A stretch of 64,000 nt of DNA from Chitinophagaceae bacterium. GTDB taxonomy: Bacteria; Bacteroidota; Bacteroidia; Chitinophagales; Chitinophagaceae. The notes below the pieces were generated by a model. The model was not told the DNA's origin, made no database searches, and saw only the letters and a list, made by a program, of their open reading frames with translations. How positions within the stretch are numbered: position 1 is the stretch's first letter; each line of letters starts with the position of its first letter. The DNA lies in contig JAMLHK010000002.1 of NCBI GenBank assembly GCA_023957155.1, positions 1 through 64,000 on the forward strand, in the 5' to 3' direction. The translations under genes and the position numbers were made by a program. This document shows, piece after piece, positions 5,813 to 40,477 of the stretch.

Positions 5813-6073
5813 ATGGAATTGCAAGCATTGTTTGAACAGGCAGCCGCAGATAGCAAACGCCTCGCTGAAAAGCCCGATAATGAAACCCTGCTGCAATTGT
5901 ATGCTTTATACAAGCAGTCTACTGAAGGTGACAACACGGGGGATGCACCATCTAATCCTTTCGATTTTGTTGCCAAAGCCAAGTACGAAGCCTGGCTCGC
6001 TATCCGGGGGAAAGCGAAAGCGTCTGCCATGCAGGAGTATATTGACCTGGTAAACAGGTTAAAAGGAAACTGA
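5813..6073 (+). CDS. Acyl-CoA-binding protein (ACBP)
   Basis: A small cytosolic four-helix protein (86 residues) that binds medium- and long-chain acyl-CoA esters. The whole protein is one ACBP domain. The signature segment YALYKQST-GD is followed by AKYEAWLAIRGKAKASAMQEYI, which contains the conserved Lys and Tyr residues that bind the CoA nucleotide. It diverges from the lipid hydroxylase gene with only 87 bp between the starts, so the two may share a control region. It converges with the gene at 6086-6922, with a 12-bp gap. Confidence 0.92.
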   Translation: MELQALFEQAAADSKRLAEKPDNETLLQLYALYKQSTEGDNTGDAPSNPFDFVAKAKYEAWLAIRGKAKASAMQEYIDLVNRLKGN

Positions 6074-7091: not shown

Positions 7092-8474
7092 ATGCCGTTA
7101 AGAAATTTCTCCTTCAGGAATATCGCAGTGGAAACGTTTAATCAGGCAGCCGAATCCATTATTCTTACCTGGAAAGAAATTGCGGTTTTGCTGGGACTGA
7201 AGCAGGATATTTATAAAAACCCCCTGCATCGTCCGCTTAAAAGACCGGTAACGGCTATTCTGATCGGGGCAGGCAACCGGGGAAATATATATGCAGACTA
7301 TGCGCTTATTCATCCCAATGAATTAAAAATAACCGGTGTTGCAGATGAAAATGCGGTGCGTAACGGCCGGTTTGCACGTAAACATCATATTGCGGCGGGC
7401 AATCGTTTTTATAAATGGGAAGATGTTTTTGCAAGAGAAAAATTTGCTGATGCCGTGATCATAGCCACCCCGGATGCGTTACATGCTGCTCCCTGCCTTC
7501 GGGCGCTGGATGCAGGCTATGATGTATTGTTGGAGAAACCTATTGCACTTACCGAGGAAGATTGCAGGCAGATACACGAAAAGGCCAAGGCTACCGGGCG
7601 GATCGTAGGCGTGTGCCATGTATTGCGGTATTCTCCTTACTTCAGGCAGTTGAAAGAGATCATCACTTCCGGGATCATCGGAGATATCGTAAGCGTGCAG
7701 CACATGGAACCGATAGGTTTTGATCACATGGCGCATTCTTATGTAAGAGGCAACTGGCATAACAGTACCCGGTCTTCACCTATTATCCTGGCTAAATCCT
7801 GTCATGATACCGATATCCTGCGATGGCTCATTAATGAACCTATAGAAGACGTGCAGTGTTTTGGCGGATTGCGTTTGTTTACTAAGGAGAATGCTCCGGA
7901 AGGCAGTACAGATCGGTGTACGGACAATTGTGCCGTGGAAGGAACCTGCCCTTTTTCCGCCCTGCAGATCTATTACCGCGACAGGAAAAGGTTATATGTT
8001 TTTGATCTGCCCGAACAGCGCCGCAACTGGGATTATATCATCTTGAAAAAGCTGAAGACCACCGATTACGGGCGTTGTGTATATCGTATGGATAACGACC
8101 AGCCCGATCATCTTACGGTAAATATGCGTTTCGCAAAAAATATCACGGCGGTGTTTTCCATGGAGGGGCTTACTTCTTATGAAGGCAGATGTACCCGGGT
8201 AATGGGAACGAAAGGAGATATCGTCGGGGATATGGAAACCTATACCATCACGGATTTCAGGACGGGGCAACAAACTACCTGGAGCCTGAAAACCGATTTT
8301 CATGGTGGTGGGGATCATCGTCTTGTACAAGACTGGGTGCAGGCGGTTGGTCACCAGGACGCACAGATCCTTTCTTCTACTATTGATGTTTCGGTGGTGA
8401 GCCATCTCATGGCTTTTGCCGCGGAGCGGAGCCGGCTGAACCACAGCATTGAAGAGGTGAAGCTGCATAAGTGA
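7092..8474 (+). CDS. Gfo/Idh/MocA family NAD(P)-dependent oxidoreductase
   Basis: A 460-residue sugar or cyclitol dehydrogenase-like protein. An N-terminal extension of about 50 residues precedes the Rossmann fold with GAGNRG. EKP in the segment VLLEKPIALT carries the family lysine. The middle domain has many Cys and His (CTDNCAVEGTC), which is unusual and could bind metal. I chose the ATG at 7092 over the longer frame opening at 6939, because the upstream part is poor coding sequence and overlaps the divergent gene's control region. Its last 30 codons recur at 14042-14131 with only silent changes, marking a recombination endpoint. Confidence 0.85.
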   Translation: MPLRNFSFRNIAVETFNQAAESIILTWKEIAVLLGLKQDIYKNPLHRPLKRPVTAILIGAGNRGNIYADYALIHPNELKITGVADENAVRNGRFARKHHIAAGNRFYKWEDVFAREKFADAVIIATPDALHAAPCLRALDAGYDVLLEKPIALTEEDCRQIHEKAKATGRIVGVCHVLRYSPYFRQLKEIITSGIIGDIVSVQHMEPIGFDHMAHSYVRGNWHNSTRSSPIILAKSCHDTDILRWLINEPIEDVQCFGGLRLFTKENAPEGSTDRCTDNCAVEGTCPFSALQIYYRDRKRLYVFDLPEQRRNWDYIILKKLKTTDYGRCVYRMDNDQPDHLTVNMRFAKNITAVFSMEGLTSYEGRCTRVMGTKGDIVGDMETYTITDFRTGQQTTWSLKTDFHGGGDHRLVQDWVQAVGHQDAQILSSTIDVSVVSHLMAFAAERSRLNHSIEEVKLHK

Positions 8475-8592
8475 AGGTTGCAAGTTGCAAGTTGCAGGTT
8501 ACAGGTTAAAAGGTCAGTAGTCAGTGGTGAGTAGTGAGTGGCTGAAAGTTCGTTTAGTGTCAGGAAGTTTGTAGTTTGGGAGTTTATAGTTA
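8384..8592 (+). repeat. Left copy of 0.2-kb direct repeat bracketing the 8.6-14.0 kb block
   Basis: This segment contains the last 30 codons of the Gfo/Idh gene plus about 120 bp after the stop. It matches 14042-14278 in the same orientation. The coding part differs at four positions, all silent. The non-coding part differs mainly in the number of short repeats (TTGCAAG, GTGAGTA). The downstream part contains the dispersed GTGAGTAGTGAG motif (around 8528-8539). Confidence 0.85.
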
Positions 8593-8673
8593 GGATCAGA
8601 AATCAATCAGAAATCCCACATTATATCCCACTCCTCCTTATTTTCTTTTGTTGGATGCGTTATACATACACCT

Positions 8674-8707
8674 GCTTTTTAAAGATTAAGTCGTATTTTT
8701 AAAAAGC
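8674..8707 (+). promoter_or_regulatory. Inverted repeat just upstream of the sensor kinase gene
   Basis: GCTTTTTAAA (8674-8683) and TTTAAAAAGC (8698-8707) form a perfect 10-bp inverted repeat with a 14-bp spacer. It ends 12 bp before the kinase start codon. It could be an operator or a leader hairpin masking the start; the sequence cannot tell which. Confidence 0.45.
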
Positions 8708-8719
8708 AAGTTAACGGTT

Positions 8720-11092
8720 ATGTATTTTGGGTTCCCGCTGTTTTTATCACTTTGTTTGCTATGCTGTTTCTCCGCTCTGTCGCAGGAAAAGGAGAATGAG
8801 CTTATCCTATTGGCTGAGGCGGCGGATGCATTTAACCTGTCTTTCAAAAATGCCGACTCTGCGATGTTATTAGCTGGTAAAATATTAACGGAGGCGGAGG
8901 AACAAAACAGTAAAGAAGCGGTGTCCGGTGCATACAATGCTATCGGTTGGGCATTTATGCATAAAGGGCACCTGGATTCTTCTATCCTATACCTGCAAAA
9001 ATCGCTGCAGGGATACAGGGATATTCAGTCTGATAAAGATATTGTCCGTCTCAGCATTAATCTGGGGGAAGTGTTTACAAAAAAGAGTCAGTATGTGGCA
9101 GCCCTTCATCACCTGCTGGAAGGTGATTCTTTAAGTGTGGCTTTGAACGATATTCCTTTACAGACAGATATTAAGCGGCAACTGGCGATCGTATACAGGG
9201 AGTCGGGCGATGATTTGCAGTCATCCCGCTATTTTCAGCAGGCCTTAGCGGGCTTTGAACAAATGGGTGATCATTTCCGTTATACCAATACCTCTGTCAG
9301 CCTGAGTATCCTTTACCGAAAGATGGCATTGCCCGATAGCAGTCTGTTTGTTTTGGAACGAAGCCTGGCGCTGGCAAAGAAGCACAATGGTACATTATAC
9401 CAGGAAGCGATGATAGAAGAGAATATAGGAGAAACCTATTTTAGTAAACAGCAATTTGCAAAGGCGTTGTTGCATTTTCAAAAAGCCTACCGCTTCTTTC
9501 ATCAATTAGGCAACCAGGCAGACCTGGGTTATGAGGCATTGTCCATTGGTAAAACACTTGCTGCTTTACACCGGCATGCGGAGGCAGAGACCTACCTGCT
9601 ACAGTCGTATGCGATAAATGAATCCCTGATGATGATCAATTATCAGCATGACGCCTCCCACGAACTTGCTTCATTGTATGAACATCGGGGCGACTGGAAA
9701 AACGCCCATTACTATTTACGGAAGGCCAACACATTAAAGGATTCACTCGATCTTTCGGCACAGCTGGCAAAAATCGCTGAGCTGAAAGCCGTCTATAAAT
9801 CGGAAAAGCAGGAACGGGAGATGGCGCTATTAAAAACAAAGCATGAGCTTACTCAATCCCATGCCGCAAGAGCCACTCTGCTGCAATATATATTTATTCT
9901 TCTTTTTATTGCGGCCGCGGCAATTGCCTGGCTGCTGGCGTACAGAATAAGGATGAAAAATAAGCAGGAACAGATAAAGGAGCAGGAGCGTATAACGCAT
10001 GAACTGGAAGATGAACGTATACTCAACCTGTTTGCCGTATCACTGTATGGTAGAAATACGGTAGATGATATATTGTGGGATATTGCCCATAACTGTTTTC
10101 TGTTAATGCATTTTGAAGATTGTGTAGTTTACAAAGTGGATAAAGAAAGGAAGGTGCTGGTGCAGGCAGCGGCGGAAGGTCCTAAAAGAATAGAAGACAA
10201 CCGCGCGATATTCAACCCCATTGAGATACCGATGGGTAAGGGAATTGTGGGTACGGTAGCGGTTACCGGAAAATCCGAAATTATTGCCGATACAGGTAAA
10301 GATGAACGGTATATTGCGGATGATGCAGTCAGGGCTGCTGAAATAACAATACCCATTTTTGTGGATGGAGAGATTTTTGGGGTCATAGATTCAGAGCATT
10401 TTCAGAAGAATTTTTATACACAAAGGCATTTGGTCTTATTGCAAAAAATTGCTGCTGTCTGCTCGGAGCGCCTGGTTAAACTGCTGGCGGAGGAAAAGCT
10501 GAGAGGTGTTATTGCACGTGATCTTCACGATGAAATGGGCTCTACCCTCACCAGCATCCACGTTCTGAGCAACCTTGCCATCACACAGCAAAAAGAAACG
10601 AAAACGCCTTACCTGGAAAAAATAAAGGAATACACAGGTAACATGATGGAGACCATGAGCGATATCATCTGGGCAGTGAACCCGCAACATGATACCGTGG
10701 AAAGACTGCTGCTGCGAATGAAGGAGTTCTCTGTGGAATTACTGGAGCCGGCAGGCATGACCTGTCATTTTTCCATTGAAGGAGTACACAATGCCCCTGC
10801 GCTGCAAGCGGAAGAGAGAAAGTTCCTCTACCTTATTTTTAAAGAGGCGCTCAACAATGCGGTGAAATACAGCAGGGCCGGCATTGTTGATGTTGCAATA
10901 GCCGAAAGCGGGGGATTTCTTCGTATGACCATTACCGATAACGGGGTGGGTTTTGATCCAGGTTCCGTTAGTGGAGGTAATGGGTTGACGAATATGCGAT
11001 CCCGTGCCAAAGCGATCGGGGCGCGGCTGGATATCCGCTCTGCACCGGGGGAAGGAACAGTGGTAACACTGGAGAAACGCATCACATCATAA
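8720..11092 (+). CDS. TPR-GAF sensor histidine kinase (NarX/HisKA_3 type)
   Basis: A 790-residue membrane sensor kinase. A signal peptide (about 1-22, ending LSQE) leads into a periplasmic set of tetratricopeptide repeats (about 35-360), then a coiled coil, one membrane helix (about 388-410), a GAF domain (about 445-590), a HisKA_3 dimerisation domain with phospho-acceptor His603 in RDLHDEMGS, and a HATPase domain with N box EALNNAVKYS and G motifs DNGVGFDPG and GNGLTNMRSRA. TPR plus GAF suggests two inputs, one periplasmic and one cytosolic. The response regulator follows after 61 bp. Ligands are unknown. Confidence 0.92.
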   Translation: MYFGFPLFLSLCLLCCFSALSQEKENELILLAEAADAFNLSFKNADSAMLLAGKILTEAEEQNSKEAVSGAYNAIGWAFMHKGHLDSSILYLQKSLQGYRDIQSDKDIVRLSINLGEVFTKKSQYVAALHHLLEGDSLSVALNDIPLQTDIKRQLAIVYRESGDDLQSSRYFQQALAGFEQMGDHFRYTNTSVSLSILYRKMALPDSSLFVLERSLALAKKHNGTLYQEAMIEENIGETYFSKQQFAKALLHFQKAYRFFHQLGNQADLGYEALSIGKTLAALHRHAEAETYLLQSYAINESLMMINYQHDASHELASLYEHRGDWKNAHYYLRKANTLKDSLDLSAQLAKIAELKAVYKSEKQEREMALLKTKHELTQSHAARATLLQYIFILLFIAAAAIAWLLAYRIRMKNKQEQIKEQERITHELEDERILNLFAVSLYGRNTVDDILWDIAHNCFLLMHFEDCVVYKVDKERKVLVQAAAEGPKRIEDNRAIFNPIEIPMGKGIVGTVAVTGKSEIIADTGKDERYIADDAVRAAEITIPIFVDGEIFGVIDSEHFQKNFYTQRHLVLLQKIAAVCSERLVKLLAEEKLRGVIARDLHDEMGSTLTSIHVLSNLAITQQKETKTPYLEKIKEYTGNMMETMSDIIWAVNPQHDTVERLLLRMKEFSVELLEPAGMTCHFSIEGVHNAPALQAEERKFLYLIFKEALNNAVKYSRAGIVDVAIAESGGFLRMTITDNGVGFDPGSVSGGNGLTNMRSRAKAIGARLDIRSAPGEGTVVTLEKRITS

Positions 11093-11153
11093 GGGTATAG
11101 CGGGGAAAACATACAGATAGTAAATTGCATTTTTCAAGCGGAAACAAATATCC

Positions 11154-11789
11154 ATGCAGGTAAACATACTGATATATGAAGACAACGATAACCTGCGCGA
11201 GACTTTGTGTTATATGTTGACGCTCGTGGAAGATCACAGGGTATGCGGCGCGTTCCGGAACTGCATACAGGCAGAGGAACAGGTAAAAACCCTGCAGCCC
11301 GATGTTATACTGATGGACATAGACATGCCGGGAATGACCGGTATAGAAGCGGTAAAAAGAATACGGAAGTTCAATACCACCGTACAGGTGCTGATGCTTA
11401 CCATTTTTGATGATAACAACCATGTATTTGATGCAATCTACGCCGGTGCCAACGGCTACCTGCTCAAAAAGTCTGTTTCCGAGAAGCTGGTGCCGGCCAT
11501 AAAAGAAGTGCTGGAAGGCGGAGCCCCCATGACACCCGCTATCGCCCGGAAAGTGATCGGCATCATGCAGGAGTCTGCAGGCAGTACACCCCCCGATTAT
11601 AGTCTCACCGCAAGAGAAACAGAGATACTGCGGTCTCTGTCCCAGGGTAACAGCTACAAGATGATAGCCGCAGAGTTTTATATCAGCATTGATACCGTGC
11701 GCACCCATATCAAAAGAATTTATGAAAAGCTGCACGTGAACTCGCAGATTGAGGCAGTAAGTAAGGCGCTGAATGAAAAGCTGGTATAA
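11154..11789 (+). CDS. NarL/FixJ-type response regulator
   Basis: A 211-residue DNA-binding response regulator. The receiver domain (about 3-120) has the acidic pair Glu9/Asp10, phospho-acceptor Asp55 in LMDIDMPG and the conserved lysine in YLLKKS. The LuxR-type helix-turn-helix (about 147-208) has LTARETEIL and SIDTVRTHIKRIYEKLHV. It lies 61 bp after the cognate-looking HisKA_3 kinase, so the two are almost certainly a phosphorelay pair. Candidate targets are the two lipoprotein genes just downstream, which share an unusual upstream element; that link is inference. Confidence 0.93.
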   Translation: MQVNILIYEDNDNLRETLCYMLTLVEDHRVCGAFRNCIQAEEQVKTLQPDVILMDIDMPGMTGIEAVKRIRKFNTTVQVLMLTIFDDNNHVFDAIYAGANGYLLKKSVSEKLVPAIKEVLEGGAPMTPAIARKVIGIMQESAGSTPPDYSLTARETEILRSLSQGNSYKMIAAEFYISIDTVRTHIKRIYEKLHVNSQIEAVSKALNEKLV

Positions 11790-11874
11790 CGCCTTTCGGC
11801 TGCTTTCCGTTCAGTTGTGTTTCCTCACGCAACCTTGCAGCCAGCTATTGTATGCCGTCAATTTCCCGGGATAG

Positions 11875-11921
11875 TCACATCATTACGGTATTGCATAAAT
11901 GCCGTTATCTGCTCAATTTAG
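11875..11921 (+). promoter_or_regulatory. Shared upstream element, copy 1
   Basis: TCACATCATTACGGTATTG (11875-11893) and AATTTAGC starting at 11915 lie before the lipoprotein gene at 11945. The same two blocks, with the identical 40-bp offset, lie before the second lipoprotein gene (12736 and 12776). TATTG and AATTTAG sit at about the spacing of -33 and -7 boxes, so the element probably contains the promoter plus a regulator site. Confidence 0.55.
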
Positions 11922-11944
11922 CGTCACAATAATTTAGGAAAAAG

Positions 11945-12628
11945 ATGAAAAAATTAACTAATACACTGCGGGTACTCCTGGCGGTATTCATTTGCCAGTT
12001 GATGCTGGCGGCCTCCTGTAAAAAGGAAGACCAGGATACAGGAGGACTGCCGCGGGACGTGCAAAAATTCAATGGCGTTTATATTGACCCGGATGCCCGC
12101 CTGAACCCCTCGATAACGGAGCATCGTTACATAGAGTTCGATGGATGGTTTGCCCGCCGGAAAAGCGGTCATATTTTAGACCCCGAACACATGCGCCTTG
12201 TTGTAAACGAGTCGAAAGGAAAGGTATTTATTAAAACTGCTAATTTGCCGCCGGGGTCGGGTCCTATTCCGGGACCATCGCTATCGTCCAGTCAACATGC
12301 GCGGCTGCTGTATGTAGAGGTTGACAACAAGAGAATTTATTTCAGATATTATGTCCAGGACCAGTCGCACAGGGCGCTTCACGCAGACGATAATGTACAG
12401 ATGGGTGGAGAACAACGTATGTTACAAAAAGAAAACCATTGGATCATACATGATCTCTCCAGGAACAACGACTTCGCGGTGGTGGCTATAGAAAGCGCTT
12501 TCGAGCGGGGATGGTTTATCATGAACGCTCCCACCTTAAACGGCGATAACCGGATAAGGCTTATGGAGCGAACCGCTGAAAATGCCACCAAATGGCAAAT
12601 ACATAAACCCCCTGGCTTCGTATTCTAA
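11945..12628 (+). CDS. Putative lipoprotein of unknown function
   Basis: A 227-residue protein with a lipoprotein signal peptide: a charged start, a hydrophobic core and LAASC followed by KKED, so it is predicted to be lipidated at about Cys25 and exported. I do not recognise the domain. The mature part is rich in aromatic and charged residues with no membrane helix. It ends in a region with WQIHKPPG. It follows the kinase/regulator pair and shares its upstream element with the next lipoprotein gene. A good terminator (12670-12690) follows, so it is likely a single-gene transcript. Confidence 0.75.
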   Translation: MKKLTNTLRVLLAVFICQLMLAASCKKEDQDTGGLPRDVQKFNGVYIDPDARLNPSITEHRYIEFDGWFARRKSGHILDPEHMRLVVNESKGKVFIKTANLPPGSGPIPGPSLSSSQHARLLYVEVDNKRIYFRYYVQDQSHRALHADDNVQMGGEQRMLQKENHWIIHDLSRNNDFAVVAIESAFERGWFIMNAPTLNGDNRIRLMERTAENATKWQIHKPPGFVF

Positions 12629-12669
12629 TACCGGGATTTTATTTCTTATCAACAACGGGTGCTGTACAG

Positions 12670-12698
12670 CCCTGCCTGCGGGCAGGGTTTGTTTTTGT
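12670..12698 (+). terminator. Rho-independent terminator
   Basis: CCCTGCC (12670-12676) pairs with GGCAGGG (12681-12687) across a 4-nt loop, followed by TTTGTTTTTGT. It ends the transcript of the lipoprotein gene at 11945-12628. Confidence 0.8.
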
Positions 12699-12735
12699 GG
12701 AGTCATTTATTTGTTTCGCCACGGCCATATCCCTA

Positions 12736-12782
12736 TCACATCATTACGGTATTGTATAGCTGCAGTTGGTTTGCGAATTTAG
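12736..12782 (+). promoter_or_regulatory. Shared upstream element, copy 2
   Basis: Identical 19-mer TCACATCATTACGGTATTG (12736-12754) and AATTTAGC from 12776, with the same 40-bp offset as copy 1. It precedes the frameshifted TIG-domain lipoprotein gene (start 12854) by about 70 bp. Confidence 0.55.
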
Positions 12783-12853
12783 CATTGCGATAGTTGCTTA
12801 TCAAACAGCAAAGCCGCAGATAATTTTCATTTACCCATACAAACGATAATATT

Positions 12854-13955
12854 ATGAAACAGCAGTTTTGGAGATCATCCGTTATATGCACCCTCCTGCT
12901 TTGCCTTGCAGCAGGCTTCAACAGTTGTAAAAAAAGATACCGATCCCCAGGACGATGATGGTAGTGGCGGTGGCAATGGTGGCGGTGGCGCCTCATCCGT
13001 GAAGATCACGGGATACACCCCCCAAAAGCCCATATGGGGCGATGTAATAGAGATCACCGGTGAAAGCTTTGCCGCTAAAGTGGAAGACGTAGAGGTCTGG
13101 TTCCCGGGAATGTATACCCAGGGCAATGAAGCTAAGGGGGAAGTGCTCGAGGCTTCACCCACCAAATTGAAAGTAAGAACACGGTACAACACAGAGCAAC
13201 GGGACGGTTATGAATATCCGACTGCCAATAGTGCAACCAGCTCCATTGTAGTGAAAGTAAAAGGCAAGACTGAATACAGCACGGAACAGCACTATATCCA
13301 GTACAAGGCTGTTCCGTTCATTAACGCCGGCAATGGCGTCCGGCCCGAAACAGGAGGCACAGGAGCGATGATCTGGCCCGGCGAAAAATTCCAGGTGATC
13401 GGCAAGGGGTTCGGTGTCACCAAGACAGAAGGAATCCTCAAGATCAATGGGGTGGAGGCTGTTATTGATTCCGTATGGGGAAACGAACCGCAGGTATTTG
13501 GCGAAGGAAGCACGAATATGATGGCTACGTTCCCGCTGGCGGTGGCCAAACCGCAACCTGGGGGAGTACAGGGCCAACAGGATTATACGGTTGAATATAG
13601 CAGGAACGGGCGTTCTTACGTCCGCAAAATGCGCGGACATGCCATGCCGCTGATCACTATCTCAGGAAACACCCTGAAGGGCTTGTATAACAACACCGAT
13701 CATATTACCGACTTCACGATTACCGGAGAAAACCTTTACCCCACGGAGATACAGTTCCGGAGTATTACAGCGGGCGGACCGAATTTTACCGTAGCTGTGA
13801 CGGGCGCAGGTCTGGGAGCTAAAAGCGTTACGGCTTCTGTTCCGCTTGCCCTGATGTTTCCTCATGGGGGAAGGCAATATGGTGTCAGGTTGTATGAGCC
13901 TACAATGGACCAGGGTTTTTCATTGAATACGGTTATCTACGTTACGCCTAATTAG
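12854..13955 (+). CDS. IPT/TIG-domain lipoprotein, frameshifted at an A7 tract
   Basis: The ATG at 12854 opens a lipoprotein signal peptide (LLLCLAAGFNSCKK) that runs into a stop after 34 codons. The frame from about 12921 to 13955 carries the rest of the protein. The shift lies at seven A residues (12929-12935): six A would give SCKKDTDPQDDD and one continuous frame of 366 residues. After a Gly/Asp-rich linker, the mature protein has about three IPT/TIG-like beta domains (ITGYTPQKPIWGDVIEITG, WPGEKFQVIGKGFG, FTITGENLYP). Without slippage, the part read from the internal ATG-less frame would lack an export signal. It may be a sequencing error, phase variation or slippage-dependent expression. 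Confidence 0.75.
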
Positions 13956-13998
13956 TTTAAGGTTTGCGATCGGCAACCCGATGCAGGAGGGTCAGCCG

Positions 13999-14035
13999 CA
14001 AACCGGTCGATACGTGCGAGGGTCAGACCGGTTTG
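13999..14035 (+). terminator. Hairpin after the TIG lipoprotein gene
   Basis: CAAACCGGTC (13999-14008) pairs perfectly with GACCGGTTTG (14026-14035) over a 17-nt spacer. The following TTATAG is only a weak U tract, so it may stabilise the 3' end rather than terminate alone. Confidence 0.5.
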
Positions 14036-14041
14036 TTATAG

Positions 14042-14278
14042 TGATGTTTCGGTGGTGAGCCATCTTATGGCTTTTGCCGCAGAGAGGAGCCGGCTGAACC
14101 ACAGTATTGAAGAGGTGAAGCTGCATAAGTGAGGATTTCAGGTCTCAGGTTTCAGGTTGCAAGTTGCAGGGTAGAGGTTAAAAGGTCAGTAGTCAGTGGT
14201 GAGTAGTGAGTAGTGAGTGGCTGAAAGTTCGTTTAGTGTCAGGAAGTTTGCAGTTTGTAGTTTGGGAGTTTATAGTTT
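14042..14278 (+). pseudogene. 3' fragment of a Gfo/Idh gene; right copy of the direct repeat
   Basis: The fragment encodes the same last 29 residues as the intact oxidoreductase (DVSVVSHLMAFAAERSRL onward to KLHK) and the stop, then about 145 bp of matching non-coding DNA. There is no start or upstream coding sequence. Four base differences in the coding part are all silent (CTC/CTT, GCG/GCA, CGG/AGG, AGC/AGT). That pattern suggests the fragment was recently cut from a functional homologous gene rather than slowly decaying. Confidence 0.85.
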
Positions 14279-14549
14279 ATAGTTTATAGTGGCATAATAC
14301 TGAAAAATAGTTGGTAAAATCCTTTGAAAGCTAGAGCCGTAAAGGATTTGATGGAAGTTTACAGAAACCTGTCTGCCGACAGGCAGGTCAACAAATCATA
14401 CCTGAGGTAAAGCATCAGGAACCAAAAGACAAATAACAAATAAAGTGCGAAGCCAGAAACTCTAAATCCTAAACGAAATGCAATCTCAAATTTCAAATCA
14501 TAAATTTCAATCTAAAGCTGATTGCCGGTAGCTGAAAGCTATCAGCCCC
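14279..14549. other. Intergenic DNA with short repeats
   Basis: No gene is visible. It contains a TTTATAGT run (14268-14290), an inverted repeat AAATCCTTT/AAAGGATTT (14317-14325, 14341-14349), a short palindrome around 14369-14390 and the dispersed CTCAAATTTCAAATC motif near 14484. All look like the small intergenic repeats seen elsewhere in the window. Confidence 0.6.
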
Positions 14550-15314
14550 TCACACCTGTTTCACCCAGCTTGCTCCATAGTGCAGCAGCCGTTGTTCCAT
14601 TCGCTTATACACTTCTTGTTTCAGCGATGGTATATCTTCTACCGTTAAGCCCTGTACAGGTATTTCTTCCATAAAAACAGCCCTGCTTCTGCCCGGGGTC
14701 AGTGTAAATAATTTGCCGTAGGGCATCCTGTTAAATGAGTCGAGAAGAAGTACCGGTTTAACGGGAGTGCCCGTTTCAATGGCTATACGAAAAGCGCCAT
14801 CGAAAAATGATTTTAATGGCTTTCCCGTTTCATTAAATGTTCCTTCGGGAAATATTAAAATGGAAATTCCCTGTTGTAAAACGGCCTTGAGCTTAAGTAC
14901 GCTCCGGGAGCGGTCGTCAGGACTGCTGCGATTAACGGTTACTATGGCATTCTTATAGATATAGCCAAATACCGGGATACCTGCGGTTTCTTCTTTTCCT
15001 AAAGCACGTATAGGTTGCCGGTAGGTTTTAACAACGATGGCTGCATCAAGAAAGGAAATATGGTTGCTTACAAAAATGTAGGACTTCTTTTTATCATGGG
15101 GCACTTCGTATATGTTTTTATGGAAAATGCCCGCCAGCGGGAACCATATATCACCCCAGATCATGCAAATGCGGTAGATGATATTCCCTCCCTGCAGCGG
15201 TCCGCGAAAAGAGGCTATGATTACAAAGGGGAAGATCATAAGCATCAGCAATACAAACAGCAGCATGGCATAGACATTATAGAGCCATCGGGATATAGCG
15301 GTTAAGGATTTCAT
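14550..15314 (-). CDS. plsC: 1-acyl-sn-glycerol-3-phosphate acyltransferase family protein
   Basis: A 254-residue membrane-associated acyltransferase that puts the second acyl chain on lysophosphatidic acid in phospholipid synthesis, or a related lysolipid acceptor. A hydrophobic N-terminal helix (about 12-35) is followed by the catalytic NHISFLD motif (HX4D) and FPEGTFNETGKPLKSF, the glycerol-phosphate-binding block. Length is typical. It is the last of a minus-strand group but separated by 43 bp from the DUF4258 gene upstream. A second, more divergent acyltransferase lies at 40634-41377, so the exact acceptor of each is uncertain. Confidence 0.87.
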   Translation of the reverse strand: MKSLTAISRWLYNVYAMLLFVLLMLMIFPFVIIASFRGPLQGGNIIYRICMIWGDIWFPLAGIFHKNIYEVPHDKKKSYIFVSNHISFLDAAIVVKTYRQPIRALGKEETAGIPVFGYIYKNAIVTVNRSSPDDRSRSVLKLKAVLQQGISILIFPEGTFNETGKPLKSFFDGAFRIAIETGTPVKPVLLLDSFNRMPYGKLFTLTPGRSRAVFMEEIPVQGLTVEDIPSLKQEVYKRMEQRLLHYGASWVKQV

Positions 15315-15357: not shown

Positions 15358-15750
15358 TCAATTGCAGTGGCATTGCCACTCTGCGTCCATATCAATGCAG
15401 GTGATCACTACCATGCCACGCTTTGAAGGCGCAAAAACAATACGAACCTGCTGGTTGTCGCGGGTAATGCCTTCTAAAGCATACTTAGGATCAGGTTTTG
15501 CATCCGGGTCGCTTTTGTTGTAGTTGATCTTTCCTTTTTGCAGTATTTCCTGTACTTCACTTTCGTCTATATGCCGGCAATCCATTCTGCAGCGGGCGTG
15601 GCGGGTATAGATGAGGGGAGTAAGTGCCCGGTTAAAGTACTCCTCTTTTCCGGCATGGTCCGGTGTTACCCGGTTGCTGAAATAGAGCCAGGAAAATATT
15701 GCACCTGTCAGCAATACAATAAGATAGCCGGTAATACGTCCCTGCTTCAT
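15358..15750 (-). CDS. DUF4258 domain protein, membrane anchored
   Basis: A 130-residue protein with an N-terminal membrane helix (about 8-24) and a DUF4258-like domain (about 48-125) with YTRHARCRMDCRHIDESEV and a central beta-rich part. It has a Cys-rich end (WQCHCN). DUF4258 proteins are small and of unknown function; some resemble toxin folds. The start codon overlaps the stop of the upstream SirB1-like gene by 4 bp (ATGA type), so the two are translationally coupled. Confidence 0.7.
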   Translation of the reverse strand: MKQGRITGYLIVLLTGAIFSWLYFSNRVTPDHAGKEEYFNRALTPLIYTRHARCRMDCRHIDESEVQEILQKGKINYNKSDPDAKPDPKYALEGITRDNQQVRIVFAPSKRGMVVITCIDMDAEWQCHCN

Positions 15751-27322: not shown

Positions 27323-27427
27323 GCTACAGATATCTCCATTAATACATTTTAGCTGATCGTATTTAAATGCTGATGCAGCATATACATTAATCTGCTATTA
27401 GATCATTCTTATAGACTGAATCGCTTC

Positions 27428-28867
27428 TCAGTTACCATAAATGACCCATGGATCGTTTATATTTTTAATTTTATCAAAAACCTGTCTTTTAAATTTTTTA
27501 ACCAGTGTGGGTTCGTCGTCTGCTATATTCTTCAGTTGAAACGGATCAGATTGGTTATCGAACAGTAATGCTCCTGTTTCTTCGCCCTTATTATTCCGCT
27601 GCATTACAAATGTGTAACGGTCGTTTCTCAATCCCCGCATGCCTCCCAATGCATTCTGGGGGTTACAAACCAGGTAAAGCGAAAACTCGGGAGCTCCGGC
27701 CTTTTTGCCGGAGAAGTATCCCGCCAGATCCTGTCCTTCAACGCCAGGGGGGATCTGTCGCTCAAGTCCGATAAGAGAAAGAAGGGAAGGCATCATATCC
27801 GGAACGCTGATATGCAGATCGTTGGTTCCTGGTTGTAGTTTTCCGGGCCAACGGATTATTAAAGGGATACGAAATGATTCTTCGTAAGGAACTACTTTTG
27901 CCATCAGTCCGTGACTTCCCATCATTTCGCCATGGTCTGAAGTGAACACCACTATTGTATTTTCTGCCTGTCCGCTTTCCTCTAATGCGCTAAGGATCCT
28001 GCCGATCTGTTCGTCTACACCGGTTACACAGGCAAAATAATCAGCTACGCTCTGCCGGGCAGTATTGCTTTGTTCTCCTTGGGGAACGTTAGGCCGGTTT
28101 AATAGCTTATTAACGGGAATATCCCTGTATATTTCTTTATACTTTTCCGGCACCTGATCGTATGGGTTGTGAGGCGGGTTCATCGAAATGAACAAAGCCC
28201 ATGGCTTATCGGTGTTGGTTCCTATAAAGTCTATAGCTACATCAGCTTCGTGCTCCGGCGACCATTTTCCCGCGAACAAAGTGTCTTTCAGCGGAGCATC
28301 GTTTACCCAGTAATAAGGGTTAAAATGTTCGTTGTAACATCCGTAAGCATGCCAGAAGTCAAAGCCATGCCTTTTTTTCCCGGGGGGAGTGTATGCATCC
28401 CATATACTATTTCTCCAGTCATCCACATCCGGACCTTTCGGAGCATCAAGGTGCCATTTGCCGATATAGCCGCAGGAATATCCGTTACTTTTCAAAACAT
28501 CAGAAAAACAGGTTTCATCTTCATGCAAAAAATTTTGATACTTACGGGTGCTTGTATTACAATTTGTCAACACATTGTTTGAAAAGCTATACTTACCGGT
28601 CATCAGCATTGCCCTGTAAGGAGAACAAATCGGACGGTTGCTTACCGCATTAGAAAACACGATACCCTGTCCTGCGAGCATGTCTATATTGGGTGTTTTT
28701 ACGGGATCCTCTTTCATAAATCCCATTGCCTGGGCACGAAATTGATCCGGGAAGATAAAAAGCAGGTTCGGCTTCTTTATATCTTCTTTTGAAGAATCCT
28801 CCGGAAAGAGTGCGAATAAAATTCCCACTACTAAAAAGAGAGGGTTGAGCGGGGAAAATATATTCAT
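27428..28867 (-). CDS. Type I sulfatase
   Basis: A 479-residue arylsulfatase-family hydrolase of sulfate esters. An N-terminal hydrophobic segment (about 8-21) suggests export. Cys81 in CSPYRAMLMTG fits the C-x-P-x-R sulfatase signature and would be converted to formylglycine. The metal-site segments FIFPDQFR, GYIGKWHLD and FTSDHGEMMGSHG are present. It is the last gene of the polysaccharide-utilisation locus, 13 bp after a putative glycosidase. The sulfated substrate is unknown. A deletion scar of a second copy lies at 30118-30164. The maturation enzyme is not in the window. Confidence 0.9.
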   Translation of the reverse strand: MNIFSPLNPLFLVVGILFALFPEDSSKEDIKKPNLLFIFPDQFRAQAMGFMKEDPVKTPNIDMLAGQGIVFSNAVSNRPICSPYRAMLMTGKYSFSNNVLTNCNTSTRKYQNFLHEDETCFSDVLKSNGYSCGYIGKWHLDAPKGPDVDDWRNSIWDAYTPPGKKRHGFDFWHAYGCYNEHFNPYYWVNDAPLKDTLFAGKWSPEHEADVAIDFIGTNTDKPWALFISMNPPHNPYDQVPEKYKEIYRDIPVNKLLNRPNVPQGEQSNTARQSVADYFACVTGVDEQIGRILSALEESGQAENTIVVFTSDHGEMMGSHGLMAKVVPYEESFRIPLIIRWPGKLQPGTNDLHISVPDMMPSLLSLIGLERQIPPGVEGQDLAGYFSGKKAGAPEFSLYLVCNPQNALGGMRGLRNDRYTFVMQRNNKGEETGALLFDNQSDPFQLKNIADDEPTLVKKFKRQVFDKIKNINDPWVIYGN

Positions 28868-28880
28868 TGTGCTGTTGTTT

Positions 28881-30086
28881 TTAGTGCTTAATCCTGAAAA
28901 CAGCGATATCGCCAGGAGCTATTAACAATGCAAATGACCTGCTTTCCGATCCTGGTTTATAGATGTCTTTAAATACGCTTTCCAGTTTCCCGTTTCCTTT
29001 AATGTATAGTTTCATGGGCTGTTTAAAGTCCCGGTTTACAATGATGGCATACTGTTGTTTGTTGTTTTCGATCAGGGATACAATGGCGCCTTCTCCTTTC
29101 GTTCTTATTTTTTTTATCCCTTTGGGAGGTTCAATAAGGCGTTGTGTGCCGGCAGGAATATTTTCACCGGTATGCCCAACTGAGATAACTTTAGCAGACA
29201 GGAAAATACCCGAAAGACTTTGAATTTCCCGGTTTACTGTTTTGATCATTTCATATACATCTGTCCTTTTGTTATTGCTATCTATAGGGCCGTGATAGTA
29301 TGTGTATTGAGATCTGTTTCTGGGAGTCCAGTAGGTAAAATATTGTATGCTCTGTGCACCATAAGCCAGGTTGGTAAATACCTGCAACCTTATTTCTGCC
29401 AGCGTTGGAACCGGGTAATGACCATGCGCCACGCTCATGGCAAAAGCCCAGAAAGGCTTATTGTTTTTTTGAGCTGTTGTAGCCGCCATTTCCAGGTTTG
29501 CAAACCATTCCTCCCGCAAATGCCGCGCTCCTTCAGATTCAATTACAGGATAGTGGTCGAATGACAATACGGGAGGATCAACCGTTGACATATAATCATC
29601 CAGGTATTGCTGATAAGTATCTGCCCCCAGTTGCTGTGGTACTGCGTAATTGGGAAAAAGGTTGATGTAACAGGCATGCTGACTGTCTACTGCATGTATC
29701 TTTTTCATCCACTTACCGAGGTAAGGGAATTCTTTAGCGGAGGGTTCGTCTTTTAGAAAATATCCTGCTGTAGCGGGATGATTCATGAAACGCCTTACGG
29801 TGTTTTCAGGGTCTGTTTGTAATTCGGGGCAACGCACAATCAATTGAACACCGGCTTTTGCTGCCATATCCAGCATCTTTGCCATAGAGTCTGTTGAAGT
29901 GCTTCGTGTAAGGCTGATAGTGAGCCCGGCGTTCTTCATTTCTTCATAACGGGCCACACTTGCCTCATGGGGTGGCACTCCTCCCCAGGCAAAAATGGGT
30001 ATTTGTGTGGTATCCGCTGCACCGGCATATAGCTTTACGCTAGTTATTAAACAAAATGAACAGCTTATCAGCAGGTTCAATCTCAT
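28881..30086 (-). CDS. Putative TIM-barrel glycosidase, copy A
   Basis: A 401-residue exported protein with signal peptide (about 1-21) and a clan GH-A-like barrel. Glu114 in FLKDEPS resembles the acid/base position, and TLAEIRLQVF plus IQYFTYWTPR resembles the later barrel strands. A small C-terminal beta domain (about 310-401) ends GDIAVFRIKH. I cannot name the GH family. It is a tandem duplicate of the next gene, with the same length and about 85 percent identity by eye. A longer frame to 30164 exists only because a sulfatase remnant is fused in frame; the ATG at 30086 matches the start of copy B. Confidence 0.75.
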   Translation of the reverse strand: MRLNLLISCSFCLITSVKLYAGAADTTQIPIFAWGGVPPHEASVARYEEMKNAGLTISLTRSTSTDSMAKMLDMAAKAGVQLIVRCPELQTDPENTVRRFMNHPATAGYFLKDEPSAKEFPYLGKWMKKIHAVDSQHACYINLFPNYAVPQQLGADTYQQYLDDYMSTVDPPVLSFDHYPVIESEGARHLREEWFANLEMAATTAQKNNKPFWAFAMSVAHGHYPVPTLAEIRLQVFTNLAYGAQSIQYFTYWTPRNRSQYTYYHGPIDSNNKRTDVYEMIKTVNREIQSLSGIFLSAKVISVGHTGENIPAGTQRLIEPPKGIKKIRTKGEGAIVSLIENNKQQYAIIVNRDFKQPMKLYIKGNGKLESVFKDIYKPGSESRSFALLIAPGDIAVFRIKH

Positions 30087-30117
30087 TACTAGTGGTTTGA
30101 ATATAAAAGAGTTAAAT

Positions 30118-30164
30118 AATTTTTTCAAAGACCTGTCTTTTGAATTTTTTAACCAGAAATTCAT
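30118..30164 (-). pseudogene. Deletion remnant of a second sulfatase gene
   Basis: Positions 30118-30156 match the 3' end of the intact sulfatase (27466-27504) at 36 of 39 bases without gaps. Positions from about 30159 on match the sulfatase start codon and the DNA before it (28863 onward). The start codon is therefore joined almost directly to the C-terminal coding end, with about 1.36 kb missing. The remnant reads MNFWLKNSKDRSL and runs in frame into the copy A glycosidase. Confidence 0.85.
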
Positions 30165-31538: not shown

Positions 31539-31557
31539 TATTCGTCTTTTCACAAAA

Positions 31558-33378
31558 CTATTTCCAGCCAGTGTTTTGTACCAGGCTGCTATTCAATACA
31601 AGTTGATCTGCCGGCAATGGATACAGATAATAATAGTCAAGCCATCCTAACGGCATAGTGTTGTATATCACATATCCTTCTGTGCCTCCCCCGGCTATTG
31701 TTAGTGCATTTCCATATTTGGTATTATCTACCCATAAACCTGTCTGTTGTTTATTCAGGTAATTACCTTTTTTCCAACGGCGCAGATCATTAAAGCGAAA
31801 TCCCTCTCCCATCAGTTCTACGCGGCGTTCACGGCGTATTTCCCATAAAACAGGCTGAATGTCTGTATCCCTGTTCAGGTCAAAAGCGCCATCTATATCG
31901 GCAATGACCATGTCCGGCATCTTCACTCGCCGCCGAAGTTTGTTTATGGTCTGGTCGGCTATTGCCTGGTCAAATTGTCCCAGCTCATAGCTTGCTTCAG
32001 CGTAGTTAAGCAGTGCCTCTTCTATCCGGAATATCGGGGCATCGGTTGTATTCACAAATCCGGAAGCATCGGTAGTGGGATTATAAAATTTATAGAAATA
32101 ATATCCCAACTGAGATACCACAAATCCCTGCCCTTCATTGAACTTCCTGAAGTGAGGAGCTGCTCTCAATACATTGCCGACCGCTTGCAAATATGGAAGT
32201 CTCTTATATCCGGGAGATGAGATAGCCGTCATGGTATCCATGTATTCCCTGTCTGCATCTATGCCGGTATGTTTCCAGAAAGTGGTGTTTTGAGAAGTGA
32301 CTACATTACCGGTGGCATCGGTAGTAGTATAGACCCGGTAGGGAGGCAAAACGGTAAGATACAGCCTCCGGTCGCGATGCCTGAATTCATCATGCATGGA
32401 ATGGTCTCCATCATATACATCGCTCGTGCTAACAGGCTTACCATCCCGGCACAGATAGCTTTCAACGGCATCCTTTGTTAAATCAAAATACCATTCTGAA
32501 CTACGGAGATAACGTTGTATTCCATGAACATTTTGACCTGCTGCATACGAACGGTACAAAATAATACCGGCTTTTCCGGCAAGGTCTTCCGAATTAAAAA
32601 TCTGGTCATAGTCTGACAACAGCGTTGGAAAATCCGAAGCAAGTTTGGCAGATGCGGTAACAGAAGCCCGCAGGTACAACTCCGCATTACCCAGCCCATG
32701 ATATTTTCTCCAGGTGCCTTCAAACAATCCAAACCTAGAGATCAGCATTCTCACTACATTCACATTAACGGTATTGGCGCCATCGCCCTTCGGATTAATA
32801 TTTGTTTCTGCCCATAAAAGATTATCAAGAATGTTCTGAGCCACTACATCCCTCGGAGTACGCGATGCATATAATATATCTTTATCATTGTCTTTTACTA
32901 CATGCTCCAGCCAGGGCACATCGCTGAATTTGGAAAGCAATTGCATATACCTGGCGCTCCGGAAAACATATCCCACGCTTTTCCAGTGGTCTTTTTCCGC
33001 CTGCGACATGGCAGACTGGTCTATGTTGTCGAGCATGATATTCACCCGCCTTATAAAAGAAAAATCCCAGTCTCCTCCAGAAGAGGGTATGGTTACGAGC
33101 TGGTAAGCCCATTGGTTTGAATTGAGAGAAGCATTGTAGCAAAGATTGTCTGAATTGGCTTCTTCAAAAAGAAAAGTGGCAGTATTCAGGATAGGTCCCT
33201 GCCCGTAGCCATCAAACAGATCATATAACCCCCAGGTGTATGTTTTGAAGTTCTCATACGTTTTAAAGGATGTGGCTTCTGTTTGCTGATCTAAAGGCAC
33301 CTTATTCAAAAAATCTTTATTGCAGGATGCCATCAGCACAACAGCAAACAATAATATATAAAAACGGTTTTGTTGCAT
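31558..33378 (-). CDS. susD: SusD/RagB-family glycan-binding lipoprotein
   Basis: A 606-residue outer-membrane surface lipoprotein that caps the SusC porin and captures oligosaccharides. The signal peptide ends LMASC, with lipidation at Cys19, followed by NKDFLNKVPLDQQT, the typical SusD start. TPR-like helices follow and the C-terminal segment has RRERRVELMGEGFRFNDLRRW, a strong family signature. It lies 19 bp after susC, so the two are co-transcribed and form one uptake complex. Confidence 0.95.
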   Translation of the reverse strand: MQQNRFYILLFAVVLMASCNKDFLNKVPLDQQTEATSFKTYENFKTYTWGLYDLFDGYGQGPILNTATFLFEEANSDNLCYNASLNSNQWAYQLVTIPSSGGDWDFSFIRRVNIMLDNIDQSAMSQAEKDHWKSVGYVFRSARYMQLLSKFSDVPWLEHVVKDNDKDILYASRTPRDVVAQNILDNLLWAETNINPKGDGANTVNVNVVRMLISRFGLFEGTWRKYHGLGNAELYLRASVTASAKLASDFPTLLSDYDQIFNSEDLAGKAGIILYRSYAAGQNVHGIQRYLRSSEWYFDLTKDAVESYLCRDGKPVSTSDVYDGDHSMHDEFRHRDRRLYLTVLPPYRVYTTTDATGNVVTSQNTTFWKHTGIDADREYMDTMTAISSPGYKRLPYLQAVGNVLRAAPHFRKFNEGQGFVVSQLGYYFYKFYNPTTDASGFVNTTDAPIFRIEEALLNYAEASYELGQFDQAIADQTINKLRRRVKMPDMVIADIDGAFDLNRDTDIQPVLWEIRRERRVELMGEGFRFNDLRRWKKGNYLNKQQTGLWVDNTKYGNALTIAGGGTEGYVIYNTMPLGWLDYYYLYPLPADQLVLNSSLVQNTGWK

Positions 33379-33397
33379 AATGTTAAGCTTTAAAAAA

Positions 33398-36300
33398 TCA
33401 AAAGTTGAGGTTGAGCCCGATGCTCATTTTCTGCATAATGGGATATTGCGCTCCATACCCCTGGTCTTTGAGCTCAGGATCTACTCCTGCGGGTAAATGC
33501 TTTTGGGTAAGCAGGTCGTCCCCGCTCACAAAAAGCCTTAGGGAATTTATTTTAGCCCTTGACAGCCATTGCAGGGGAAGACTGTAACCCAGCGTGATAT
33601 TTTTTACCCTCATATAAGCTCCGTTTTGCAAAAGCCGTGTTTGTACGAGCTTATTATAGCTGCTGTTACCACCTCCCAAATTATAAATACGTCCATAAAA
33701 CGCATCGGTATTGTCAATGGTCCAGTAATCGAGCAGGTTGCTATACAACGTGCCATAGTTGGAGGAATAAGGATATGTAAGATCATTCACAACAAACAGG
33801 TCTCTTTTACCTACTCCCTGTATAAAGACAGAAACATCAAAACCATGCCAGGCGGCACGTGCTGAAAAGCCATACTGGTAGCGACGGTTGTTGTTGCCGA
33901 TGATCCTTCTGTCGCCGGGATTATCTACTGTATTGTCTCCCGTAAATATTTTCCCGTCTTTATCAAGGTCTTTGAATTTAATATCTCCGGGATTGGGATT
34001 TTCGCCCTGGTATTTAATTACACCATCGCGCAATTTCCCTCCCAGCAGGTTACTGTTCAGGCTACCGTCTTCAAAGTCTGCCACGGTATAAAATCCGTCT
34101 GTTTCATAGCCCCATATTTCTCCTATTTGCTGTCCCACATAATATTGGGTAAGCAGGCGGGTTGCATTAATATCGTATTTGGTAATAAAGGCCTTATTAT
34201 CGGAAAGTGTAAATCCGAATTGATAATTCACTTTTCCTATCTGGTCTTTCCATGCAGCCTGTAACCCCCATCCGGTAGATTTCAGATCGGCCGTATTTTG
34301 AAGGGGTGTGCTGGCGCCCAATACAGCAGGCAGTTGTGCACCGGGGATCAGCATGCCTGTTGTGGTACGCTTAAACAGATCGAAGCTGCCGGTAAACCTG
34401 TTGCTGAACAGCCCGAGATCAATCCCGAAATTCCTGGTGGTTACTTTTTCCCAGGTAAAGTCGCCACTGATCAATCCCGGGGCATCTAATGTAAGATACC
34501 TTACCCCGGAAACATCTGCCCAGTTGGAAGTAGGCCGGGTTTTCATTCCGGAATAATACAGGTAATTGCCTATAGACTGGTTGCCCACATTACCATAACT
34601 TGCCCTGAATTTCAGCTCAGACAGAACGGGTTTGAGTACCTTCATAAATGCCTCGTCCGATACTCTCCAACCGGCAGATACCGAAGGGAAAAATCCCCAT
34701 CTTCTGCCATCAGGGAATTTGGAGGAACCATCATATCTGCCCGTGGTTTCCAACAAATATTTTCCTTTATATGCATAGTTGAATCGGTAAAAATATCCCT
34801 GTACCGCGTATTCAGAAAATCCGTCAAAACCATTGGCGTCCGGCTGGATAACACCCGTACCGCCATCTAAATAGGGAAGGTTGGGATTGATCATGTTCGA
34901 CATCTGCGCATTCAGTAATTCAAAATAGGAGCTTTCCTGGTTAAAGCCGGCAACGAGGGTAAACAGGTGGTCGTCCAGTTTTCTTTCGTAGTTGCCATAG
35001 ATGTTCAGCGCGTGGTAGTCGGTAAAGTCGTTGTATTTATAGTACTTTGCCTTATCTGCAGTAACGGTAGGGGTGGGAACAAAACTGCTTAAAGTAATTA
35101 TATCAAACGGCTTGTCATAGCTGGTATTGACACTATTGGTTTTATCATAGGTGTATTCACCCACCACGTTAAATCCTTTAAATATATTCAGGGTTACTTT
35201 ACCGGACAGTCGTATATTATCTAACCTATCGTTGCTTACCGCCGCATTCTCAATCAGATTCTTTGGCGTGGCATAAGGCACATACACGCCGTCAATAAGA
35301 GAATCTCCAACAAGAGTATAGGAAGGCAATACTGATGCTGAACCGAATATGCCGAATCCAATTCCCGTATATGGGAATTGCTTGTTGGCATTAGAGTACA
35401 TGGTGCTTAGCTGGGCATTGGCCCACGGGGTAACCTGGGAATTGATAAAGCCGGTGAGGTTGTATCGTTTATAGCTATCCTTATGGGTGATCAGAATACC
35501 GTCTTCATCCGTAAAAGCACCTGCGATCCGGTAAGATGTTTTTTCCGTTCCCCCGCTTATAGCCAGGTTATGTGTTTGCTGAAATGCATTGGTAGAAACC
35601 ATTTCCTTCCAGACGTCATTTTCCCGCAAGGGATAGATGACGCCGTTTTGGATGGTATATCCCGATCCGTATTGAGACGAGTTTTGAGTATAATCATTCA
35701 ATAAACTTAACCAGTCGTCTACATTCTGACCGGTTCCCGGGCTGAAGTTCATGTCTTTGAATGATTGAACGGTTTGAAGTGGGGTAGCTTTCTTAGGCAC
35801 TTCCAGCGGGCGGCTGAAGACCAGGTTGTTGGAATAGTCAATGGTTGTTTTTTTGGCTCCTGCCTTGTTTTTACTGGTAAGCAGGATCACTCCCCATGCC
35901 GACCTGGCGCCATATATTGCAGCAGAACCTGCATCTTTTAAAACCGTTACCGTTTCAATATCATTTGGATTTATTAAAGAGAGCGATGCCACCGGCACAT
36001 TGTCAAGCAGGATCAGTGGCGACCCGTTGGAGCCTGAGCCTATGCTTGTAGTACCTCTTATGTTCAGTCCTGTAGAAGCTCCCGGTTCACCTGAGGAATA
36101 GGTGATCTGCAGATCGGGTATAACACCCTGCAGCAACTGCGCTATATTGGTAGTAGCCCTGCTGCCTGCTACTTCTTTCATATTTACGGTATTCACAGCG
36201 CCGGTCACATTGGTCTTTTTTTGCGTACCGTAGCCTACTACGATCACTTCCGAAGAAGCGGTAATTTCCGGTTGCATGCTGATCTCTAAAAAAGTAGTTG

Positions 36301-39817: not shown

Positions 39818-40477
39818 TTAAAGAAAGTTTTTCAGTAGTTCCCCGTTAAATTCGGTTAAGCTGTTCAGCCGGAGGTCTGCCGCATTCCACCTGGGCTCAT
39901 GCTGTAAAAGCCTGTCGGGTACAACCACACATTTCATCCTTGCCGCTTTTGCCGCTATCATACCATGAAATGAATCTTCAAAGCAAAGACATTTAACAGG
40001 CACGGAGTTTAATTCGGCAGCACAGGTAAGATATACTTCCGGGTGAGGCTTACCAAAAGGCAGGTGCTGGGCAGAGGTCATTGCCTGGAGGTAATGCCGG
40101 ATGTTTAATTTATCGGTTACTACATGAACCACTGTCATCGGGGATGAAGTGGCCAGCCCGATCTTATACCGGTGTTCTTTAAACAGGGCAAATATTTCCT
40201 GTACACCGGGCATGGGGATGGCTCTTGCATCAATTTTTTCGATGGCTTTACGGATGGTTAATTCAACCGCACCGGGAATATGGGCAGGGTTAATCTTTCC
40301 ATAGTGCAGCCAGTAGGTAATCCATTCTTCCGTACGTAATCCACGGGTAGTATGGTATTGTTCACCGGTCAGCACGATATTAAATTCCTGTAAAACTTCT
40401 GCGGCTGCTTCTTCCCATAAGGGTTCGGAGTCTATAAGCAACCCGTCCATATCAAAAATTACGGTATCTGTTTGCAT
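39818..40477 (-). CDS. HAD-family sugar phosphatase (HxpB/YniC-like)
   Basis: A 219-residue cytosolic HAD hydrolase. Motif I is FDMDGLLIDSEP, motif II is in GLATSSP, and motif III/IV is FGKPHPEVY plus CFEDSFHG. This pattern groups with 2-deoxyglucose-6-phosphatase / beta-phosphoglucomutase-like enzymes that hydrolyse hexose or pentose phosphates. The ATG at 40477 is chosen; the longer frame would begin with 21 residues unlike any HAD protein and overlap the divergent acyltransferase's upstream region. Confidence 0.85.
   Translation of the reverse strand: MQTDTVIFDMDGLLIDSEPLWEEAAAEVLQEFNIVLTGEQYHTTRGLRTEEWITYWLHYGKINPAHIPGAVELTIRKAIEKIDARAIPMPGVQEIFALFKEHRYKIGLATSSPMTVVHVVTDKLNIRHYLQAMTSAQHLPFGKPHPEVYLTCAAELNSVPVKCLCFEDSFHGMIAAKAARMKCVVVPDRLLQHEPRWNAADLRLNSLTEFNGELLKNFL

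Follow-up and report, generated by a model that had tools for sequence, protein, structure and literature searches.

The first 64,000 nucleotides (nt) of contig JAMLHK010000002.1 from a Chitinophagaceae bacterium (assembly GCA_023957155.1; forward strand, hereafter the window) contain a block of four genes lying between a Gfo/Idh/MocA oxidoreductase gene (hereafter Gfo/Idh) and a PlsC-type acyltransferase gene, bracketed by two direct copies of the Gfo/Idh gene end (Table 1). The block comprises a sensor histidine kinase and a response regulator, both assigned by Pfam, and two genes called lipoprotein-like by eye from a signal-peptide-like start ending in cysteine. In four relatives the Gfo/Idh and acyltransferase genes are directly adjacent, showing that the block is an insertion; most simply, the window lineage gained the four-gene unit in the short space separating these convergent genes.

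Table 1. Coordinates of the block, its bracketing repeats and adjacent genes in the window
Feature	Position	Strand	Basis or associated element
Gfo/Idh/MocA oxidoreductase gene, intact, 3' end forming the left repeat	7134..8474	+	Pfam GFO_IDH_MocA
Left repeat copy: last 30 Gfo/Idh codons and 117-nt period-7 array	8384..8591 (208 nt)	+	sequence alignment
Sensor histidine kinase	8720..11092	+	Pfam TPR repeats, GAF, HisKA_3, HATPase_c
Motif copy (3 mismatches) overlapping the kinase gene end, upstream of the regulator	11081..11100	+	-7-like box 11121-11128
NarL/LuxR-type response regulator	11154..11789	+	Pfam Response_reg and GerE
Motif copy upstream of lipoprotein 1	11874..11893	+	-7-like box 11914-11921
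Lipoprotein-like gene 1	11945..12628	+	no Pfam family
Terminator-like hairpin 3' of lipoprotein 1	12668..12689	+	homologous sequence in G008
Motif copy upstream of lipoprotein 2	12735..12754	+	-7-like box 12775-12782
Lipoprotein-like gene 2, frame interrupted near 12930	12854..13955	+	IPT/TIG match under Pfam cut-off
REP-like palindromic repeats immediately preceding the right copy; exact-arm palindrome 14000-14034	13956..14041	.	fold and pattern search
Right repeat copy: orphan Gfo/Idh 3' end and period-7 array	14042..14277 (236 nt)	+	sequence alignment
PlsC-type acyltransferase gene, Gfo/Idh neighbour at the relatives' empty site	14550..15314	-	Pfam

The insertion site and its repeats

The comparison covered 12 genomes of the genus, namely the window genome (G000) and 11 others (G001-G011), together with a wider sample of 394 genomes, itself a subset of the larger family. 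No same-species strain and no genome close to a donor was among the genomes compared. The window genome is a draft (26 contigs, 88% complete, 4.35% contamination) and the contig carrying the window is 461 kb long. A tree built from four proteins (Gfo/Idh missing for G008 and one small protein for G010) separated the window genome, G003, G007, G010, G001 and G011 (the window clade) from the other six with a split support of 0.999; the branching order within this clade was weak (0.28-0.57), the pairing of G003 with G007 excepted.

Orthologs of Gfo/Idh (84-92% amino acid (aa) identity) were present in 10 of the 11 other genus genomes and absent from G008. In G003, G001, G010 and G011, that is four of the 11 other genomes and four of the five other members of the window clade, the Gfo/Idh and PlsC genes are convergent and directly adjacent, with a single Gfo/Idh tail and no block, the gap between matched coding ends being 97, 187, 127 and 21 nt, respectively. 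Strains with one tail and no block, proposed as a check when the DNA was read from sequence alone (the sequence-only reading), therefore exist, and an ancient, stable arrangement is ruled out by this empty site. The fifth clade member, G007, has a different, convergent gene after Gfo/Idh, and in G007, G005, G002, G006, G004 and G009 the Gfo/Idh and acyltransferase genes lie on separate contigs. Genes flanking the block on both sides follow the same order in G003, and eight of them aligned with their G003 counterparts over the full length or nearly so, such that frequent sequencing indels are not apparent.

The direct repeat described in the sequence-only reading was located exactly. Searching the window genome with positions 8300-9200 returned the right copy as the sole strong second match (expectation value E 1.7e-74), which excludes a chance origin of the repeat; the next-best match (E 1.1e-6) covered 33 nt only. 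The coding part of the repeat (91 nt) has four mismatches between copies, verified as all silent. Over the 117 nt that align after the stop codon, the copies differ at four positions, and they are further set apart by indels of 14, 7 and 7 nt. These lengths are all multiples of seven because this part is a period-7 array, with a self-match at shift 7 of 0.58 (left) and 0.63 (right) versus 0.18-0.33 at shifts except 7 and 14. These degenerate arrays (8475-8591 and 14133-14291) directly follow the Gfo/Idh stop, as do period-7 arrays in G003 and G001, so that both copies look like authentic downstream flanks. Short matches to the arrays are scattered at many places of the genus genomes, and heptamer repeats of different sequence are described for some Bacteroidetes in the cited part of PMC4679880.

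As previously read, the right copy lacks a gene body, and its 30-residue match to Gfo/Idh (14040-14129) is preceded by a palindromic repeat. This palindrome ends 7 nt before the tail, has a fold z-score of -3.4 (0 of 200 shuffles as good) and, searched by its exact arms, occurs at two places in the window genome, at seven in G010 (six on one contig) and at none in the other 10 genomes, with no match for the control. It thus behaves as a dispersed extragenic palindrome of the repetitive extragenic palindromic (REP) type. Known REP sequences are likewise short extragenic palindromes found at several places (PMC3733652, in part); the likeness rests on the palindrome and its dispersal rather than on GTAG/CGTC tags or a transposase, and the copy number here is low. 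In G010, palindromic repeats are arranged head-to-tail with a spacing of ~85 nt (contig C17, ~40100-40760; L133-L135). Upstream of the two tails no clear similarity was found before the tail starts, as in a non-homologous join.

The four-gene unit and its counterpart in a relative

The genes between the repeats agree with those anticipated from the sequence. A kinase with HisKA_3 and HATPase_c domains adjoins a regulator with Response_reg and GerE domains, the layout of what we take to be a NarL-type two-component system. Kinase and regulator have the same domain make-up as in NarL-type systems with HisKA_3 kinases, but the block differs from these in its lipoprotein-like neighbours, which have no firm Pfam family, and in a promoter motif common to these and the regulator gene. 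Both expected lipoprotein genes are there, but the second has a frame interruption that is lacking in its intact G008 counterpart; its IPT/TIG match scored 19.9 bits versus a curated cut-off of 20.9. The AlphaFold model of lipoprotein 1 was unusable (mean predicted local distance difference test score 34), hence no fold search was made. No recombinase domain was detected with Pfam in the four block genes and six neighbours scanned (the small neighbours at 5813-6073 and 15358-15750 were not scanned), Rfam gave nothing at gathering score in 8300-14700, and scans for sigma-70 promoters and terminators gave no excess over shuffles (region hairpins 6 vs 5.8).

A search for the block as a unit elsewhere, also proposed earlier, found the four genes in the same order at a different place in one other genus member among the 12, G008. 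The unit there does not lie at a Gfo/Idh ortholog, which G008 is without. Specifically, the kinase had a 71% aa match in G008 and matches of at most 54% in the other 10 genus genomes. At an E threshold of 0.001, lipoprotein 1 matched three of the 394 family genomes (the window's own, G008 and, at 3.8e-4, G067), strongly only the first two; lipoprotein 2 matched seven, again strongly only in the window and G008. Scans of genome contigs gave 59 pattern stretches for lipoprotein 2, with one locus confirmed, and 13 for the kinase, none confirmed as a relative. Of the block proteins, lipoprotein 2 was the one compared with 50,697 phage and 72,556 plasmid records, and it had no match in either set.

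Relative to G008, synonymous divergence (dS) declines sharply from gene to gene through the block, from 2.32 for the kinase and 1.52 for the regulator to 0.53 for lipoprotein 1 and 0.13 for lipoprotein 2 (over the 340 codons after the frame interruption), three core genes being at 2.79 or saturated. The block has therefore not moved as one recent piece, and fresh import of the whole block from a G008-like donor is ruled out. Protein constraint alone is insufficient to explain the dS of 0.13. In 100-nt segments compared with G008, identity ranged mostly from 54 to 80% across the kinase and regulator but reached 98% where these two genes meet (11092-11191); it was 70-93% within lipoprotein 1 and 92-99% between 12692 and 13891. 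By BLAST, the junction tract (11086-11200, 115 nt) was 97% identical, synonymous sites included, versus ~72% in flanking coding sequence, and gave no conserved RNA structure signal (86 of 200 shuffles fold as well). These high-identity tracts fit either the swapping of short pieces of sequence among lineages or a constraint that acts on the DNA itself. The kinase-regulator pair is thus either old in both genomes or acquired from a distant source, exchange of the lipoprotein genes apparently being more recent. The proposal of a mobile sensing module needs a qualifier: the unit recurs in G008, but kinase and regulator are near core divergence and only the lipoprotein genes look recently exchanged.

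The G008 cluster has repeats of its own. Downstream of lipoprotein 2 (L101, 3540-3712) lies a remnant of the lipoprotein 1 gene end with its terminator, a second orphan gene end in the cluster; over 48 nt this terminator shares 98% identity with its counterpart 3' of lipoprotein 1. The kinase-regulator pair of G008 is flanked by members of two dispersed repeat families (L101, 5943-6254 and 9406-9696), which reach ~300 nt in size and are each present several times in that genome. Elsewhere in the window, 27399-30121 (91%) and 31548-34299 (87%) match contig C2 of G008, other pieces in the same 20 kb matching at 64-76%; this looks like a second stretch recently shared by the two lineages. By eye it encodes a sulfatase, two related secreted-type genes and a SusD/SusC pair, no family search having been made.

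A promoter motif within the block

The two lipoprotein genes are each preceded by a copy of a direct repeat, from which a 20-nt motif, ATCACATCATTACGGTATTG, was derived. Allowing three mismatches, it occurs three times in the 64-kb window (0 in 100 shuffles), solely upstream of the regulator, lipoprotein 1 and lipoprotein 2, and the same three positions are occupied in an 18-kb stretch of G008. The exact 18-mer core was found at four places in the 12 genomes, every one upstream of these lipoprotein genes. Eleven more matches had one or two mismatches, including a one-mismatch site upstream of an unlinked G008 homologue of lipoprotein 2 (42% identical). Eight of the ten others (L139-L142, L144, L146-L148) fall inside open reading frames and two are in G007; because a reversed control pattern gave four matches at up to two mismatches, versus 15 for the motif, these ten are compatible with chance.

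Promoters of this kind have a -33 element at a usual spacing from the -7 box. Seven motif sites, three of them in the window and the other four in G008, were compared with the Bacteroides -7 consensus TAnnTTTG (PMC4747536, in part). The fit peaked exactly 20 nt past the motif, with four of six positions fitting at six sites and all six at the unlinked homologue. For four separate sites the summed fit was 18, a value reached by 0 of 5000 shuffles (offsets 15-25); since the leaders of lipoproteins 1 and 2 are alike, the motif sites are not fully independent. The motif is likely a candidate regulator site overlapping the -33 region. Its limitation to the block, together with the constant spacing to a -7-like box, makes the block look like a self-contained regulon.

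Origin of the duplicated gene end

The left copy completes a working Gfo/Idh gene and leads into the block; the right copy retains the native neighbour, the acyltransferase gene, and is thus most simply the resident tail. We see about an even chance that the arrangement arose by a homologous join at Gfo/Idh combined with an illegitimate join at the palindromic repeat, leaving the resident tail as an orphan. Incoming DNA would have carried a Gfo/Idh 3' end with the four-gene unit behind it, and would have recombined homologously in or before the resident gene; its far end, the REP-like palindrome, would have been joined illegitimately inside the last 30 codons of that gene. The incoming tail would then complete the working gene, and the resident tail with its post-stop array would be left beside the acyltransferase gene. 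Once in place, the kinase-regulator pair would switch on the regulator gene and the two lipoprotein genes via the shared site overlapping the -33 region.

Several results bear on this homology-plus-illegitimate route. Both copies resemble authentic Gfo/Idh ends, but no donor for a homologous anchor was found. A simple multinomial model favoured divergence of both tails as functional gene ends over drift of the right copy as dead sequence, with a likelihood ratio of 4.9-5.8, and the tail-tail synonymous divergence (Ks 0.18-0.24) is of the same order as the lipoprotein 2 dS versus G008. Polarised by the codons of relatives, two of the four silent differences seem to have arisen in the right copy and one in the left, the fourth being ambiguous, which makes the test of functional origin weak. 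The earlier suggestion of a functional homologue as the source of the right copy is thus weakly favoured. No complete second Gfo/Idh gene corresponding to that copy, as envisaged in the suggestion, turned up in the window's own (88% complete) genome.

A number of points weigh against the route and the regulon predicted with it. The likelihood ratio is modest, with one difference apparently derived in the left copy and one unpolarised, and no donor tail ~95% like either copy was found in 58 genomes, the best ortholog reaching 82%. Nor does the route explain the earlier step that placed the unit behind a Gfo/Idh gene. The divergence of kinase and regulator from their G008 counterparts comes close to that of the core genes, which precludes recent import of the whole block in one step from a G008-like donor. 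On the regulatory side, the weaker motif matches are possibly due to chance given those of the reversed control, six of the seven -7-like boxes fit the consensus at four positions only, and control of the motif-bearing genes by the block's own regulator is inferred.

A possible but less probable account is that the insertion itself duplicated the gene end, by a template switch in replication or by fill-in of a widely staggered break, the copies being identical at first and then diverging with the right one non-functional. This needs one event and no tail-carrying donor, and the tails are indeed mutually closest (4 of 90 nt differ, versus 15-26 to ten orthologs), with only two of the four differences looking derived in the right copy. 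However, an all-silent pattern has a probability of 0.003-0.007 if all four changes arose in a dead copy and of 0.05-0.08 if two did, and the likelihood ratio of about 5 goes against this account.

We regard as improbable the single crossover of a circular or imported segment that was proposed in the sequence-only reading. A circle would have integrated by crossover in the Gfo/Idh 3' end, with a since-lost integrase or with RecA acting on captured homology, and the unit could in principle exit by recombination between the copies. A close parallel is the e14 element in icd of Escherichia coli, which also sits in a gene 3' end and supplies a new one, a 163-bp piece of the old 3' end staying as a duplicated pseudogene much like the orphan tail here (PMC6379469, in the part cited). 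The completed gene on one side, the truncated gene end on the other, the direct repeats of the target 3' end and the empty site in relatives all match. Nevertheless, e14 is a site-specific prophage according to the same part of that source, whereas the unit here has four genes and no recombinase was found in these or in the six neighbours scanned. A circle would also need to have carried beforehand a gene tail cut off precisely at the palindrome, lipoprotein 2 (the sole block protein searched there) was without a match in phage or plasmid records, and the G008 unit does not lie at a Gfo/Idh ortholog.

It would likewise be a long shot that the block is a RecA-driven mobile regulon, in which sensor, regulator, promoters and lipoproteins form one cassette that captured a housekeeping 3' end as attachment homology, the lipoprotein part being separately exchanged at the shared leaders. 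If true, insertion would never break the target gene and recombination between tails could release the cassette. Least probable is an assembly artefact joining two strains ~4% apart, one with the block and the other supplying the second tail: the draft state and contamination of the genome, and differences resembling strain-level silent changes, speak for it, but the stretches read of the contig had no N run, the join lies between palindrome and tail without common upstream sequence to mislead an assembler, and the left and right flanking genes are in G003 order.

The homology-plus-illegitimate route has partial precedents. Orphan Rhs C-terminal fragments are also displaced, about 95% identical and downstream of the main gene, but they encode a different, reusable toxin end, whereas in the present case the end of the protein stays the same and new genes separate the fragment from the main gene (PMC3967940, in part). 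Swapping of type VI secretion system effectors by homology-facilitated illegitimate recombination similarly combines one homologous and one less precise join and places new genes behind a conserved 3' end; in the portion of PMC11751169 cited the exchange occurs in many strains, in contrast to the one genome without a donor here. The kind of arrangement is already known and its details are new; a literature search turned up no comparable module, which is no proof that none exists.

The locus provides a before-and-after case in which a bacterium gains a whole sensing unit beside a housekeeping gene and leaves that gene undamaged. It also offers a concrete 20-nt candidate binding site, at constant promoter spacing, for a two-component system with presumed lipoprotein targets. 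Finally, the steep drop in synonymous divergence over four linked genes is a testable sign of lipoprotein swapping behind a fixed regulator.

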